A DNA stretch of 64,000 nt from Phycisphaerales bacterium (GTDB lineage Bacteria; Planctomycetota; Phycisphaerae; Phycisphaerales; UBA1924): positions 25,090 through 89,089 of the forward strand of contig JADLGW010000042.1 of assembly GCA_020849105.1 (NCBI GenBank), written 5' to 3'. Positions 56,586-62,603 of the stretch are shown here, piece after piece. The translations under genes were made by a program, and so were the position numbers. Numbering within the stretch: the stretch's first letter is position 1; every line of letters begins with the position of its first letter. Under the pieces are notes generated by a model, which did not search any database, was not told the origin of the DNA, and saw only the letters and a list, made by a program, of their open reading frames with translations.

Positions 56586-57581
56586 CTACGGCGCAAGGGG
56601 CGACCTGCCCGCCAGGATCCGATCACGGGAGCCCAGGCGCACCACGCGCTCCACGAACGCCCCGTACTCGAGCGAGGCTCGGTCCAGCGGATCGGGCCAG
56701 TATGCGCCCCAGAGCCCGGCCGCCCCGCCCAACGCACGCTCGCGCCTCAGGCGCCCCTCCGCGGCGTCGTCGAGCATGACCTCCAGCCCATGGCGCAGGC
56801 GCCCGTTGTCGCTCTCCAGCAGGAAATGGGCCAGGGCCCAGACCTGCGCGTAGTAGGTCAGCGTGTCATCCGTGCTCCGCTCGATCAGCGTCTGCGGGTC
56901 CGCCGCCAGAAGGTCCGGCAGCGAGAGAAGCCCGTTCCGCTGCGCGGCCGCGCGCAACTGGTCGAACCGTTCAACGTTGGCCCACCCGGCGAAGACCGGG
57001 CGAAGCGGCCCGGCGGGGTCGGGCAGGAACCCTTCCATATAAGTGGCCAGGCCCTCCTCAGCCCAGACCGGGAGGGCCCCGCGGAACGTCCTCTGCGTGT
57101 ACTGGTGCCAGCCCTCATGGGCCGCAATAGAGAGCGTGTCGTGGGGGCCGATGGACCAGAGCAAGGCCCGGCCGCCGGACGAGAACCCACCCCGCTGGAT
57201 GAGCAGGTACGCCGGCGCCTGGCTGCCCATCACCTGCCGGGTCAGAGTCTCCCACTCCCCTCGCGTCCCCATGAGGAATGTGTCCAGCGTCATCGGCGGC
57301 TCCGGGAGCGGAGTGACCGCCGTGCGGTAGCGGTGCAGCGCGGCCTCCAGGAACACCGGCACCTGGAGCATCAGGTTCGGGTCGGTTTCCGTGGTGTAGA
57401 GGCGATAGGAGGCTGTGCGGATCATCGCGCCCGCGTGCCCGTCGAAACTCCAGGGCGCCCGCGAGACCACGCTCGGCGCGTGCAGCACGGCGGGCGACGC
57501 GGCGCGCGGCGCCGGGGCTGAACACGCGACCAGCGCGAGAGCCGCGACGATTGGTGCGGCTGCGGGCCCGGCGCGCATCAT
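56586..57581 (-). CDS. Lipoprotein with HExxH metalloprotease-like domain (DUF1570-like)
   Basis: 331 residues. A lipobox (VAALALVACSAP, LVA-C) marks a lipoprotein. The C-terminal half has a zinc motif AAHEGWHQYTQRTF with Glu in the WAEEGLATYMEG segment two turns on, as in gluzincin-type families such as DUF1570. It starts at an ATG that overlaps the valS stop by ATGA, so it is coupled to valS. The substrate is unknown; proteolytic activity is inferred from the motif. Confidence 0.75.
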   Translation of the reverse strand: MMRAGPAAAPIVAALALVACSAPAPRAASPAVLHAPSVVSRAPWSFDGHAGAMIRTASYRLYTTETDPNLMLQVPVFLEAALHRYRTAVTPLPEPPMTLDTFLMGTRGEWETLTRQVMGSQAPAYLLIQRGGFSSGGRALLWSIGPHDTLSIAAHEGWHQYTQRTFRGALPVWAEEGLATYMEGFLPDPAGPLRPVFAGWANVERFDQLRAAAQRNGLLSLPDLLAADPQTLIERSTDDTLTYYAQVWALAHFLLESDNGRLRHGLEVMLDDAAEGRLRRERALGGAAGLWGAYWPDPLDRASLEYGAFVERVVRLGSRDRILAGRSPLAP

Positions 57582-60500
57582 CCCAGCCCCGCCAGGGCCG
57601 CTCGGGCCGCGGAAAGGTCGGCCTTCACCTTCGTCAGTTGGTCACGGGTCTGCTGGACCATCGCCGGGGGGGCTTTCTCTGAGTACCCCGGGTTCGCAAG
57701 GCGGCCCTCCAGGGTTCGCCCGGATTTTTCCAGGTCGGCGATGAGTTTCGTCAGCCGGGCCTGCTCCGCGCCCTCATCGACGGCGTCGGCAAGGTTGCCG
57801 AGGTGGCACGGGAGAGACTCGAAGGAGAATGGAACGCCGGTGCCCGCCGGGGCGGAGGTTGAGATCGATTCGAGCCCGGCGAGCGTGGCGACCAGCGGGC
57901 CCGCGGCCCGGCACGCGGCGGCCAGGCCTTCCGGGACATGGAGCGTCACGCGGCGCTTGGGCGGCACCTTGTGCCGGGCGCGCACCTCGCGCACCGCGGT
58001 GATGAGAGCACGGAGACGCTCGAAGTCTCGCTCGGCACCCTCGTCGCGGAGTGAGGCGTCCAACCGGGGCCACCCGGCCGTGGCGAGCAGCCGGTCAACC
58101 CGCGACGGGGTAAGGTCGATGCCCGGCACCGGGTCAGTCTCGATCTCGCGCAGGCTTCCCCACACGGCTTCGGTGATGAACGGGGCGATTGGGTGCAGCA
58201 GCCGGATGATCGTCTCCAGCGCGTGCGCGAGCACGGCACGCTGTGCCGGGTTCTGCGCGACGGTCGGCTTGATGGCCTCCAGGTACCAGTCGCAGAAGTC
58301 GCGCCAGAGCAGGTCGTAGACGGTCTGCGCGTACACACTGAAGGAGTAGCCCGCCAGCGCGGCGTCGATCTCGGCGACGCCGGAGGCCAGGCGCGAGAGC
58401 ATCCAGCGGTCCACTACAGAGCCCTCCACGGGAGTGGAGGGTTGTCCCCCCTGCTCCCGCAGGGGGCTCTGGAGGATGCCGAGCGCGAAGCGTGCCGCGT
58501 TCCAGAGTTTGTTGCAGAAGTTGCGGCCCAGGTCGAACTTCGGGCTGGTGTTGCGGCCCGTCGCCGGGTCCTTCTCGACCGGCATCCGCACGTCCTGCGT
58601 GTGCGTCGTCATCTGGCACAGCGTGAAGCGCATCGCGTCCGCCCCGTGCGTGGCGATGATGTCCAGCGGGTCCACGCCGTTGCCCAGGGACTTGGACATC
58701 TTCCGTCCCTCGCCGTCCTGGATCATGGCGTGGATGAAGACATCCCGGAACGGCGACGGCCCCTCGCCGCGGCCCATCTCCTCCAGTTGCTTCTGCTTCG
58801 TGCCTTTGTGGCTTTGTGCCTTTGTGCCTTCTGTTCCCCATCCCTCCGGCATGAAGTACCGGTTGAACATCACCATCCGCGAGACCCAGAGCGTGATGAT
58901 CTCGCGGGCCGTGCAGAGCACGTCGCTCGGGTTGTACGCGCGCAGCAAATCCGTGTCCTCCGGCCAGCCCATCGTGGACATGGGCCAGAGAGCGGAGGAA
59001 AACCAGGTGTCGAGGACATCGGGGTCGCGGACACAGCCGTGCCGCTCCAGGAACTCGATCACCGCACGGTCGTCCGTGTCCCGGACGCAATAGAAGTGGT
59101 CGATCGAGCGACGACCGACCGCTGGCTCTTCACCCCGATGGTCCGCGTCAATGTCGATTTCCCACAATCTTCCCTCGCGAGTCCATCTGATGGGCTCGAA
59201 GTGGTCCGGCGGAGGATCCGTGCCCCAAAAGTGGCTGATACTGCCACCCTTCCACACCGGAATCCGGTGCCCCCACCACAGTTGGCGGCTGATGCACCAG
59301 TCACGGATGTTCTCGTGCCAGTGCTCGAAGGTCTTGGCGTACCGCTCGGGGTGGAAGGTCAGGCTCCCGTCGCCGGTGTGTTCTTGGGTGGCACCGCTCT
59401 CCAGAGCGGTGGTTGGTCGTCCGAACTCTGTGACCACACCTTCGAGCTGCTGATGAACGTAAAACCACCGGTATTCCTGCGCCTTGTGTGCAATCCCCGC
59501 GCTCACCGGGTTGTTCAGGATGTACTGCGCGAACTCCGCGAACCAGCGCTCGTCACGGACAATGTGGTCAAAGCGCTCGTCCTGCCACAGGTGCCCCGTA
59601 GCACCCCGTCCCTGATTGATCTGACGCGCCGTGAACTTCTTGATGCTCGACACCCAGTCACCAACCCCTGTGCCGACGAGCGGTTTCACAAGGGCATGCA
59701 CGTGATCATGCATCACAACAGCGAGAAACAGCGTGACTTCCTTCCCGTCCCAGAACCGGAGCGCGGACAGCACCGAATCGCGCTCGGGCGCCGAGAGTTC
59801 ACCCTCGAGCAGACGCCAGGTGACGAAGTAAGTCGCTCCCTTCATCTCCACATGCGGCAGGTTGTGGATCGTCTTGATGAATCCGGGCGACGGATCGCCG
59901 GGAGGATACGGGTCCCGCTTCTCGAATCCCGCGGCTCGGATCAGATCGAAGCGGGGGCGCTGTCGCGTGCGGGCCTGGTTTTGCTTGCCGAACGTGGGAG
60001 CAGAATCACCGCTCTGGAGAGCGGTGCCACCGAGAGCGGTGCCACCGAGAGCGGTGCCACCGGAAGAAGGTCCCTGACTCATCGCTCGCAGCGCCGACCC
60101 GCGCATCGAGTCGTCGGTCACGCGCACGTACCACTGGTCGCTCAGGTAGGGCTCGATCGCCGCCTTCGACCGGTCCGAGTGCTTGACGCTGTGGCGGTAG
60201 GGGCGGCGGGCGGCGAGCAGGCCGCGGGCCTGGAACTCGCGCACTACGAGTTTGTGGGCCTCCTCCCGCGACTTGCCCACGAACACATGAGCATCGCCCA
60301 CGTCCGTCCAGCCGTGCTTGTCGCTGATCGAGGCATCCGGCGCGAAGATGTTGACCAGCGGCAGGTTGTGCCGCTGCCCGATCTCGTAGTCATTGGGGTC
60401 GTGCGCCGGCGTGACCTTCAGGAAACCCGTCGCATACTCGGCTTTCGGGTCTTCCGGTTCTTCCCCTTGTGCCTCCGTGCCTTCGTGCCTTTGTGCCTTC

Positions 60501-61507
60501 TTCATGACAACGTAATCGTCCTCGATCAGCGGGATCACGCGGCCCACGAGGGGCAACTCGACAGAGAGTCCGCGGAGGGCGCCGGCGCGGGGGTCGCGCG
60601 GGTTCACGGCCACCGCGGTGTCGCCGAGGTACGTCTCGGGCCGCGTGGTCGCGACGGTCACCCAGGCCGGGTGTTCATCGGCGTGGTCCGCATTCTCCGC
60701 GGCCGGCCAGCCGCGGGAGCGAAGTTCGGACCAGGTCACCGGAGTGGTGGCACCGGTCTCCAGACCGGTGTTCTTCCCACTGCTCTGGAGAGCAGTGCCA
60801 CCACGGACCAACGGATACCGCAGGTAGAAGAACTCGCCGTCGACCTCGACATCCTCGCACTCGTCGTCGGCGACGGCGGTCTGGAGGACCGGGTCCCAGT
60901 TGACCAGCCGCTTGCCGCGATAGATGAGGCCATCCCTGAACAGGCGGAAGAAGGCCTCCTGCACGGCTCGCGCGCACTGCTCGTCCATCGTGAACCGCTG
61001 GCGCTGCCAGTCGCAGGAGCAGCCCATCGCCCTGAGTTGCCCGGTGATGGTCGCCTCGTACTCGTCCTTGAAGGACTGGACGATGGCGACGAACGCCTCG
61101 CGCGTCATCGCCTGCTTCAGCGGGCCGGACAGCCGCCCCTCCTTCCGCAGCCGGCGCTCCACGACGGCCTGCGTGGCGATCCCGGCGTGGTCGGTCCCCG
61201 GCATCCAGAGGGTCTCATACCCCATCATCCGGTGGGCCCGGACCAGGATGTCCTGGAGCGTGTTGTTGAGGGCGTGCCCCAGGTGCAGCCGGTCTGTCAC
61301 ATTGGGGGGCGGAATGATGATGCAGTAGGGTTCAGCCTCACCCCGAAGCACCCGCCCGGGGTCCGGATGGAACGCTCCGGAACGTTCCCACGCCTCCCGG
61401 ATCCGCCCCTCATGGTCCGCCGGACGGTACTGCTTGGGGAGGTCCCCCGGGGCCCCGCCCGTCCCCGCGCCTGTTGCAAACCCTGCACTATCCGCCGGTT
61501 CCGCCAT
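57578..61507 (-). CDS. valS: Valyl-tRNA synthetase carrying five in-frame repeat inserts, one a whole transposase
   Basis: 1309 residues against the usual 880-950. The ValS core is intact: HLGH near residue 75, editing-domain TTRPETYLGDTAV and VTPAHDPNDYEIG, the core IRDWCISRQLWWGHRIPVW, GRKMSKSLGNG at 935-945 and the C-terminal coiled-coil tRNA arm. The excess lies in five inserts that keep the frame: residues about 235-255 (REP doublet), 335-348 and 892-906 (GGCACAAA-type repeat), 482-707 (RAYT transposase with REP ends) and 1013-1031 (double hairpin). All fall in loops between conserved blocks. Start ATG 61507 is chosen; an upstream extension is out of character. Probably functional, but splicing or processing of the inserts is possible. 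Confidence 0.93.
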   Translation of the reverse strand: MAEPADSAGFATGAGTGGAPGDLPKQYRPADHEGRIREAWERSGAFHPDPGRVLRGEAEPYCIIIPPPNVTDRLHLGHALNNTLQDILVRAHRMMGYETLWMPGTDHAGIATQAVVERRLRKEGRLSGPLKQAMTREAFVAIVQSFKDEYEATITGQLRAMGCSCDWQRQRFTMDEQCARAVQEAFFRLFRDGLIYRGKRLVNWDPVLQTAVADDECEDVEVDGEFFYLRYPLVRGGTALQSSGKNTGLETGATTPVTWSELRSRGWPAAENADHADEHPAWVTVATTRPETYLGDTAVAVNPRDPRAGALRGLSVELPLVGRVIPLIEDDYVVMKKAQRHEGTEAQGEEPEDPKAEYATGFLKVTPAHDPNDYEIGQRHNLPLVNIFAPDASISDKHGWTDVGDAHVFVGKSREEAHKLVVREFQARGLLAARRPYRHSVKHSDRSKAAIEPYLSDQWYVRVTDDSMRGSALRAMSQGPSSGGTALGGTALGGTALQSGDSAPTFGKQNQARTRQRPRFDLIRAAGFEKRDPYPPGDPSPGFIKTIHNLPHVEMKGATYFVTWRLLEGELSAPERDSVLSALRFWDGKEVTLFLAVVMHDHVHALVKPLVGTGVGDWVSSIKKFTARQINQGRGATGHLWQDERFDHIVRDERWFAEFAQYILNNPVSAGIAHKAQEYRWFYVHQQLEGVVTEFGRPTTALESGATQEHTGDGSLTFHPERYAKTFEHWHENIRDWCISRQLWWGHRIPVWKGGSISHFWGTDPPPDHFEPIRWTREGRLWEIDIDADHRGEEPAVGRRSIDHFYCVRDTDDRAVIEFLERHGCVRDPDVLDTWFSSALWPMSTMGWPEDTDLLRAYNPSDVLCTAREIITLWVSRMVMFNRYFMPEGWGTEGTKAQSHKGTKQKQLEEMGRGEGPSPFRDVFIHAMIQDGEGRKMSKSLGNGVDPLDIIATHGADAMRFTLCQMTTHTQDVRMPVEKDPATGRNTSPKFDLGRNFCNKLWNAARFALGILQSPLREQGGQPSTPVEGSVVDRWMLSRLASGVAEIDAALAGYSFSVYAQTVYDLLWRDFCDWYLEAIKPTVAQNPAQRAVLAHALETIIRLLHPIAPFITEAVWGSLREIETDPVPGIDLTPSRVDRLLATAGWPRLDASLRDEGAERDFERLRALITAVREVRARHKVPPKRRVTLHVPEGLAAACRAAGPLVATLAGLESISTSAPAGTGVPFSFESLPCHLGNLADAVDEGAEQARLTKLIADLEKSGRTLEGRLANPGYSEKAPPAMVQQTRDQLTKVKADLSAARAALAGLG
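58417..58472 (-). repeat. Double-hairpin repeat in frame in valS
   Basis: Outer ends CAGAGCCC and GGGCTCTGG are complementary. Inside are two perfect hairpins, CCCTCCAC-GGGA-GTGGAGGG (58422-58441) and CCCCCTGC-TCCC-GCAGGGGG (58447-58466). Translated in ValS as LQSPLREQGGQPSTPVEGSV, between the catalytic end and the anticodon-binding domain, where the family usually has a short link. The REP-doublet layout matches the repeat at 60744 but with different sequence. Confidence 0.85.
58790..58832 (-). repeat. GGCACAAAG tandem repeat in frame in valS
   Basis: Minus-strand AAGGCACAAA is repeated at about 9-10 base spacing (AAGGCACAAAGGCACAAAGC, then CACAAAGGCACGAAGC). It encodes TEGTKAQSHKGTKQKQ, absent from normal ValS, just before the FRDVFIHAMIQ strand that leads to KMSKS. 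It belongs to the same family as the repeat at 60465-60503. Confidence 0.8.
59388..60062 (-). mobile_element. REP-associated tyrosine transposase (RAYT) unit bounded by inverted REPs, in frame inside valS
   Basis: The ends are inverted copies of CACCGCTCTCCAGAGCGGTG: one at 59391-59410, and at 60008-60062 a copy extended by two further GGTGGCACCGCTCTC units. The 675-base unit is exactly 225 codons and is open in the valS frame. The interior reads as a RAYT: KGATYFVTWRLLEGEL, the HUH motif VVMHDHVHALVK (His600, His602, His604 of ValS), KKFTARQINQGRGATGHLWQ, DERFDHIVRDERWF and the tyrosine motif FAQYILNNPVSAG (Tyr662). Y1 transposases of this type act on REP hairpins. A possible own start is ATG 59845 (MKGATYF). 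The catalytic residues look intact, so it may still be active. Confidence 0.9.
60465..60503 (-). repeat. GGCACAAAG tandem repeat in frame in valS (second copy)
   Basis: Minus strand: AAGAAGGCACAAAGGCACGA, then AGGCACGGAGGCACAAGG. It encodes KKAQRHEGTEAQGEE in the ValS editing domain, between the conserved IPLIEDDYV strand and the GFLKVTPAHDPND motif, where other ValS have about 8 residues (DEYVDPEFGTG-like). It is the same family as 58790-58832. Confidence 0.8.
60744..60804 (-). repeat. REP doublet in frame in valS editing domain
   Basis: Outer ends GTGGTGGCAC and GTGCCACCAC are inverted copies; inside are two hairpins, CACCGGTCTCCAGACCGGTG and CACTGCTCTGGAGAGCAGTG. These are the same design as the REPs that bound the transposase at 59388-60062. 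The doublet is translated as GGTALQSSGKNTGLETGATT between the YLRYPLV and TTRPETYLGD segments of the editing domain. It is probably a substrate of that transposase family. Confidence 0.88.
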
Positions 61508-61544
61508 AGAGTGGCGAGTGTAGTCGGGCCGATATTGGGATGAG

Positions 61545-62603
61545 ATGATGAGACCGCGCCTCGACAGCATCGGCCCCGCCGAGCCTACGCCGCGGGGCGG
61601 GCCCAGCCCTTTTCTCACGCTCATTCTCCTGCTGCTGGCGGGCGGGCTGATCGCGATCCTGGTGGCGGGGTACAAGGCAGGCACCTGGGGTCCCGTGCCT
61701 GCGAACGGGCAGTCTTCCCGGACCACGGTTGCCCCGTATGTGGCGATCAAGACGGCTCTGGACACCGGACGAAAGCACCTGAAGGAGAACGAAGCGGGCA
61801 AGGCCGAGGCGGTCCTCCGCGAGGCCGTCGGAGAGTACCCCGACGACCAGGACCTCCGCATCGCGCTGGGCGAGGCGCTCATGCAACTGCGCTCGTTCCC
61901 GGAGGCGTACCAGCAGTACGTCGCGGCCCTGGCGATCGGGCCCCGGACGCCCGGCGTCGAGTTCATCGCGGGGACCCTGGCCAGCGCCACCGGCCAGCCC
62001 GAACGCGCGGTCGAGCACTACTCCGCGGCCCAGGCGGGCGACCCGAAGAACGCCACCTACCCGCTGTACCTGGCCCAGGTCCAGTTGAAACTCAACCAGC
62101 CCGAGCCGGCCAAGGCCAACCTGATGCTCGTGACGCGGCTGGACCCCGACAGCGCGATCGCCTGGGGGACGCTGGCGGAGACCGCGCTGCGCGAGAACAA
62201 CGTGCACATCGCGCTGCAGCACATCGCCAAGGCCCGCGCACTCCAGCCGGACACCGCGGCGTGGCGGATTATCGAGGCCCGGGCCCTCAAGCGCAAGGGC
62301 GACGTGGAGCAGGCCCTTCTCGTGCTCGGCGGGCTCTCCCCTGGGGAGAAGAAGGAACCGGCGACCCTGAGCCTGCTGGCCGAGTGCTACGGCCTGCTCG
62401 ACCGACCGGCCGATGCCGCGGGCGTCTTTGCGGACGCGTCCGACGCCAAGCCGGGTGACCCGAACCTTGCGTACGAGGCGGCGACGTGGTTCGCGCGTGC
62501 GGATCAGAACGACAAGGCCGCCGTCTTCGCGTTGCGGGCCAGGGAAAACAAGCACCCGCAGGCGGACAAACTCCTGGAGCGGCTGGGGAAAGAGCAGAAG
62601 TAG
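61545..62603 (+). CDS. TPR-containing membrane-anchored protein
   Basis: 352 residues with one N-terminal helix (FLTLILLLLAGGLIAILVAG) and about seven TPR units (residues 80-345), for example AEAVLREAVGEYPDDQDLRI and AQAGDPKNATYPLYLAQVQL. It is divergent from valS with 37 bases between starts. TPRs bind other proteins; the partner is unknown. ATG 61545 and 61548 are adjacent; the first is taken. Confidence 0.85.
   Translation: MMRPRLDSIGPAEPTPRGGPSPFLTLILLLLAGGLIAILVAGYKAGTWGPVPANGQSSRTTVAPYVAIKTALDTGRKHLKENEAGKAEAVLREAVGEYPDDQDLRIALGEALMQLRSFPEAYQQYVAALAIGPRTPGVEFIAGTLASATGQPERAVEHYSAAQAGDPKNATYPLYLAQVQLKLNQPEPAKANLMLVTRLDPDSAIAWGTLAETALRENNVHIALQHIAKARALQPDTAAWRIIEARALKRKGDVEQALLVLGGLSPGEKKEPATLSLLAECYGLLDRPADAAGVFADASDAKPGDPNLAYEAATWFARADQNDKAAVFALRARENKHPQADKLLERLGKEQK

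Follow-up and report, generated by a model that had tools for sequence, protein, structure and literature searches.

A complete transposase inside valyl-tRNA synthetase

The only valS gene found in the source genome carries, in frame, a 225-codon unit that is a complete RAYT (REP-associated tyrosine transposase) with inverted REPs. The gene lies in the window, by which we mean the whole 64,000-nucleotide stretch of Phycisphaerales DNA that was analysed, and encodes valine--tRNA ligase. Open-frame analysis places it on the minus strand (57578..61507), running from an ATG at 61507 to a stop at 57578 as a single frame of 1309 aa, insert included. The NCBIfam valS models match both flanks of the insert, PRK05729 with 924.8 bits and TIGR00422 with 762.6 bits, and both exceed their curated cut-offs (704 and 612, respectively). 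Our search of the source genome, which is 93.8% complete, gave this one valS above cut-off and no second one.

The insert (59388..60062, minus strand) measures 675 nt, stays open in the valS frame over exactly 225 codons, as the initial annotation had claimed, and is absent from some relatives. The REP hairpins that had been proposed for both ends are indeed there: the ends of the unit form a 28-nt inverted repeat (96% complementary) and the linkers on either side of the transposase are REP-coded. On the 5' side of the gene, the REP at 60007-60031 is accompanied by two further 15-nt partial copies, and this array (60007..60061, minus strand) codes for GGTALGGTALGGTALQSG; the inverted 3' REP (59387..59411, plus strand) codes for TALESGAT in ValS. 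The REP is repeated in the source genome, with 70 copies at three mismatches or fewer and none for the reversed control. Elsewhere in valS there is a second, separate REP pair, also in frame (60746..60802, minus strand; C42:85835-85859 and C42:85867-85891). The gene has, in addition, two stretches of 8-nt repeats (60461-60499 and 58790-58834; GTGCCTTT-like on the plus strand), coded in frame as KAQRHEGTEAQGE and TEGTKAQSHKGTKQK, and the ValS of P0002 has peptides similar to these.

The RAYT domain proper (59423..59959, minus strand) corresponds to ValS residues 517-695. Its HUH motif, H602-V603-H604 (59696..59704, minus strand), is part of an HDHVH coded at 59696-59710 and falls in columns that are conserved across the clade. 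The presumed catalytic tyrosine, Y662 (59522..59524, minus strand), belongs to a YILNNP coded at 59507-59524 and aligns with the Y-I-x-x-N-P of PDB entry 4er8 (TnpAREP). A closer alignment to RAYTs had been named as the check on these residues, and the window copy has lost none of them. The NCBIfam model NF047646 (REP_Tyr_transpos) gives residues 552-681 a score of 77.1 bits, slightly below its cut-off of 80, a threshold that other embedded members pass (L221 with 93.1, L252 with 87.3 and L209 with 81.8), and Pfam Y1_Tnp matches the insert with 24.9 bits (cut-off 23). A profile of the domain finds 4er8 with an E-value of 5.1e-11, most of the domain length being covered. The AlphaFold model of the domain alone (mean pLDDT 88.4) likewise has 4er8, a REP transposase bound to its hairpin, as its top fold match (E 7.8e-8, TM 0.61/0.66), so the domain is predicted to adopt the Y1 HUH fold of TnpAREP. 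The model of the whole ValS is poor overall (mean pLDDT 63.3) and was used for its block pattern only; in it the RAYT appears as a confident block flanked by linkers of very low confidence. With valS models on both flanks and this fold match in between, the central claim of the initial annotation, that an essential synthetase contains an entire RAYT in its own frame, is supported.

How would such a transposase be made? The initial annotation had suggested an internal start at ATG 59845, but this codon lies downstream of LPH, the first conserved RAYT motif, and in the window copy the 45 codons before that motif contain no ATG, GTG or TTG. An internal start is thus rejected for the window copy, and it is not general in the clade either: 33 of 68 members lack an ATG over the 45 codons that precede the domain and 10 of 68 have no ATG, GTG or TTG there, while 35 of 68 do have an in-frame ATG in that interval, five of them with an SD-like stretch. 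Nor does the window unit contain a stop codon, and it is therefore not a REPtron in the sense of a free gene that starts and stops between its REPs. A precise in-frame unit with inverted-repeat ends might suggest that it is removed from the RNA or the protein, as an intron or intein, before ValS acts. We consider this the least credible of the alternatives, given that no Rfam family reaches its gathering threshold over 57500-61600, so that no RNA structure of a group I or II intron was found, that no intein domain, and hence no Hint splicing domain, occurs among the Pfam matches of the window ValS (E 0.001), and that in the many relatives, too, the unit does not interrupt the frame. On these sequence grounds an intron or intein was rejected. 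The simplest reading of the sequence is that the window RAYT is translated as part of ValS; expression of valS would then make the transposase, because a usable start and a stop codon are both missing from the unit itself.

Recurrence at the same site and in other host proteins

The fusion is not the one-off that it had seemed to be: the clade recurs, faithful to its sites, in ValS, LeuS, RdgB and a few other proteins. The search for ValS proteins with a Y1 transposase that the initial annotation proposed was run with the RAYT part of the 1309-aa ValS as query and with long public proteins only as candidates (n=938). It yielded 29 that hold a RAYT, namely 19 ValS, five LeuS, one DnaE, one SNF2 helicase and three PF06634 proteins, the ValS, LeuS and DnaE hosts being assigned from Pfam domains and sequence motifs. 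The insert of all 19 ValS fusions sits just ahead of the stretch leading to RDWCISRQ. One of these ValS proteins (P0013) is publicly named 'REP-associated tyrosine transposase', an annotation hazard that the embedding brings with it.

Within the family of the source genome, 135 genomes have a valS match at E 1e-85. We examined 128 of them (G020, G024, G035, G050, G092, G110 and G128 were not fetched), and four loci lack an anchor (L160, L173, L180 and L192), leaving 124 genomes for counts at the ValS site. A transposase is present there in 30 of the 124. The distance from anchor to anchor is 242-340 aa in 29 of these, the remaining one having a variant anchor, compared with mostly 52-108 aa where there is no transposase (133 aa in L174 and 163 aa in L169). 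The same site and architecture thus recur in many genomes, one of them (G067) a single contig, and among proteins drawn from ncbi, jgi and ena; for this reason we reject the possibility that the window fusion is an assembly chimera. A separate observation concerns the valS of G038 (L187), where a stop codon comes after another REP-like peptide, RGTGVPPG, and the KMSKS part lies further on in the same frame; this is either a broken valS or a sequence error.

The transposases at the ValS site are of three types: type A, as in the window, in six genomes, type B in 20 and type C in four (L159, L162, L175 and L186). Type C is another Y1 transposase (YLITFTTYGTWLHG...) with inverted ends of 16-27 nt. 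In three relatives (L197, L148 and L097) the same ValS loop holds REPs without a transposase. One possible, though distinctly less probable, account of this variety is repeated fresh transposition: REP-RAYT units would insert at any place, the survivors being those that happen to be in frame and free of stops in one of a few loops that tolerate them, and nothing would need to be transferred from allele to allele. The solitary REPs, the unrelatedness of the three transposase types and the freedom of the loop to vary from 52 to 163 aa between anchors without any transposase all speak for it; the clade's distribution over host genes, which we take up below, does not.

ValS is only one of the hosts. 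Profiles of types A and B agree on 68 places, which lie in 57 of 150 genomes of the family: 28 in ValS, 19 in RdgB, 16 in LeuS and five singles. For 64 of the 68 the host protein is present on both sides in one frame (27 ValS, 18 RdgB and 16 LeuS, plus one each in MiaA, HscA and glycine C-acetyltransferase), and host motifs flank both sides in 61 of the 63 members in ValS, RdgB or LeuS. As to the others, L270 runs to the end of its contig, in L272 the host frame is lost beyond the insert, L225 (DnaE) shows its host on one side only, and L275 is a 233-aa frame at a contig edge that adjoins free RAYTs on the tree and is probably itself free, the only such clade member in the 150 genomes. That single candidate makes a scant pool of donors for fresh transposition. 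The RdgB inserts lie after ARFVC and ahead of the xGxFEGxIG stretch; those of LeuS precede the FTTRPDT(L/I)FGATYM stretch in 14 of 16 cases, a second site being used in the other two. The source genome has a second embedded RAYT of its own, in RdgB (XTP/dITP diphosphatase; L007:697-2085 on contig C60 of G000), which carries a different REP (CGGGGGCGTCCCGCCCCCG) and scores 53.2 bits with NF047646, under the cut-off of 80. At E 1e-9 these 150 genomes contain 60 further matches, with 39-98.5 bits and frames of 174-387 aa.

It is likely, for the family of the source genome and on present sequence data, that the habit of this clade is to be embedded in host proteins. A search across the phylum found a match in 45 of 392 genomes. 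Among the 15 matches of at least 112 bits outside the family, 11 look free, with frames of 156-299 aa, and it is for this reason that the statement that the clade lives embedded is limited to one family; the other four have frames of 365-1365 aa. Embedding as such may nevertheless be wider, since another RAYT group occurs in ValS at a different site (L326 and L345) and in CarB (L328), these three being the only cases among the long-frame RAYT groups for which both host sides are confirmed. Long frames with other RAYT groups were also seen in L316, L318, L342, L343, L332 and L355, and in further phyla; the long-frame matches include an SNF2 helicase, BREX PglX-like methylases, a DUF1156 anti-phage protein, a CCA transferase and IspG.

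Selection, REP copies and inheritance

The embedded transposases have largely kept their catalytic residues. The two histidine columns are conserved in 68/68 and 67/68 members and the tyrosine in 66/67, with all three kept in 65 of the 67 assessable members; two ValS inserts (L247 and L259) have each lost one. Among the 22 closest pairs, dN/dS was computable for 18 and ranged from 0.106 to 0.326, many of the pairs having high dS. Such purifying selection on the RAYT domain is what one would expect if it had been domesticated as an accessory domain serving ValS itself. We nevertheless think this very improbable: the domain is absent from 94 of 124 relatives, the same clade is found in LeuS, RdgB and unrelated proteins, and the REP ends remain matched. 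Matched ends of at least 14 nt occur in 60 of the 68 members, against 3 of 3400 shuffles, the other eight having no such ends.

The initial annotation had also proposed that the enzyme may still move REPs. Copies of the window's REP were counted across the 150 genomes with one mismatch allowed, and 134 of them have none. Where the ValS-RAYT carries this REP, as it does in three genomes, there are 47, 35 and 23 copies, which places these genomes first, second and fourth of the 150; six other genomes have 15-28 copies and no embedded RAYT that carries it. The source genome has six other Y1_Tnp matches, and not one of these has a listed REP copy within 10 kb. These copy numbers, like the selection on the domain, point indirectly to continued activity, and to that extent the proposal stands. 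The REPs also seem to break assembly, since copies lie near the first bases of contigs C21, C40 and C42 of G000, with the same pair in C40 and C42.

The history of the inserts was followed on two trees. On that of the transposases (103 RAYTs, a quick method that leaves 44 of 99 inner branches open), the host labels require 14 changes compared with 63.7 when shuffled, and 0 of 200 shuffles were as low. The RAYTs thus cluster by host gene, a pattern that random jumping between loci would erase, and this speaks against fresh transposition. Host-specific clades would also follow from a single ancient insertion per host gene with vertical descent and many losses, and there is a weak positive correlation between RAYT and host distances, both for ValS type B (r 0.27; 7 of 2000 permutations as high) and for RdgB (0.29; 9 of 2000), which suggests that part of the history may be vertical. 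However, on the ValS tree, built with the insert cut out, presence of the insert is almost random (24 changes compared with 27.1 shuffled; 34 of 500 shuffles as low), and the types replace one another among neighbours, with A, B, B and C occupying the one ValS site in four neighbouring species. Moreover, nearly identical inserts occur in G067 and G132 (599 of 600 nt over six insert windows) and none in their congeners G099 and G119. Weakened in these ways, one ancient insertion seems to us improbable, though the weak correlation remains. Directly upstream of the loop junction G067 and G132 are far less alike (65/100 and 79/100 in the two windows there), but the valS of these genomes is a patchwork in which other windows are likewise 91-100% identical, so the near-identical insert is not proof of homing. 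Taken as a whole, the constancy of the site, the patchy presence and the phylogeny by site are the behaviour of homing elements, and we infer a site-faithful horizontal spread with frequent loss.

Relation to known elements and a proposed life cycle

The window unit resembles the known RAYT/TnpAREP enzymes and their REPtrons in its HUH and tyrosine residues, its fold, the inverted REPs at both ends and the few copies per genome. It differs from them in that it is not a gene of its own but is read, with no stop or usable start, as part of ValS; in the source genome's family, 64 of the 68 clade members are similarly flanked by host protein on both sides. Palindromes in frame in housekeeping genes are known from intragenic REPs and from the palindromic elements of Rickettsia, which occur in genes that include tRNA synthetases and DnaE (PMC3733652). 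Those elements are short, 20-30 aa for dimers, whereas here a whole transposase is inside the gene; the passages covered make no mention of a RAYT within a gene. Among the titles and abstract openings covered, a sample that takes in few subscription papers, we likewise found no RAYT within a host protein.

Inteins and homing elements place a mobile enzyme in frame in essential proteins, at the same site across species, with patchy presence and a phylogeny that follows the site. The clade of the window shares all of this. Unlike them, the window ValS has no splicing domain that we could find and an HUH single-strand nuclease in place of a homing endonuclease, and the insert appears to stay in the protein.

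The reading that we favour, with somewhat better than even confidence, is that the RAYT is made as an extra domain of ValS and spreads between valS copies, at the same site, like an intein that does not splice. The presence of a whole transposase in frame in this valS, and of a transposase at the same spot in 30 of 124 genomes, makes it likely that the element lives and spreads as part of essential enzymes. The RAYT domain would fold alone between flexible, REP-coded linkers, and we propose that ValS still works for that reason. The fused enzyme would nick single-stranded REPs and move them elsewhere in the genome. In an essential gene, frameshifts or rough deletions would seldom be able to remove the insert, and new genomes would be reached either by recombination through the conserved flanks or by a new insertion into this loop; this step, of retention and spread, is the least certain of the proposal. 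We give roughly even chances to a broader possibility, that this lineage of HUH transposases, no longer a gene, constitutes a mobile element of a new class. It would persist in the essential enzymes ValS, LeuS and RdgB as a domain that is translated and not spliced out, home between alleles at fixed sites and drive the genome's REP population from there, its stop-free, frame-neutral REP ends being an adaptation to read-through.

If this is true, essential enzymes would be keeping a selfish element in place although it does not splice, and the persistence of a RAYT as a single copy would have a possible explanation. It would also make it directly testable whether a transposase domain functions while built into a tRNA synthetase.
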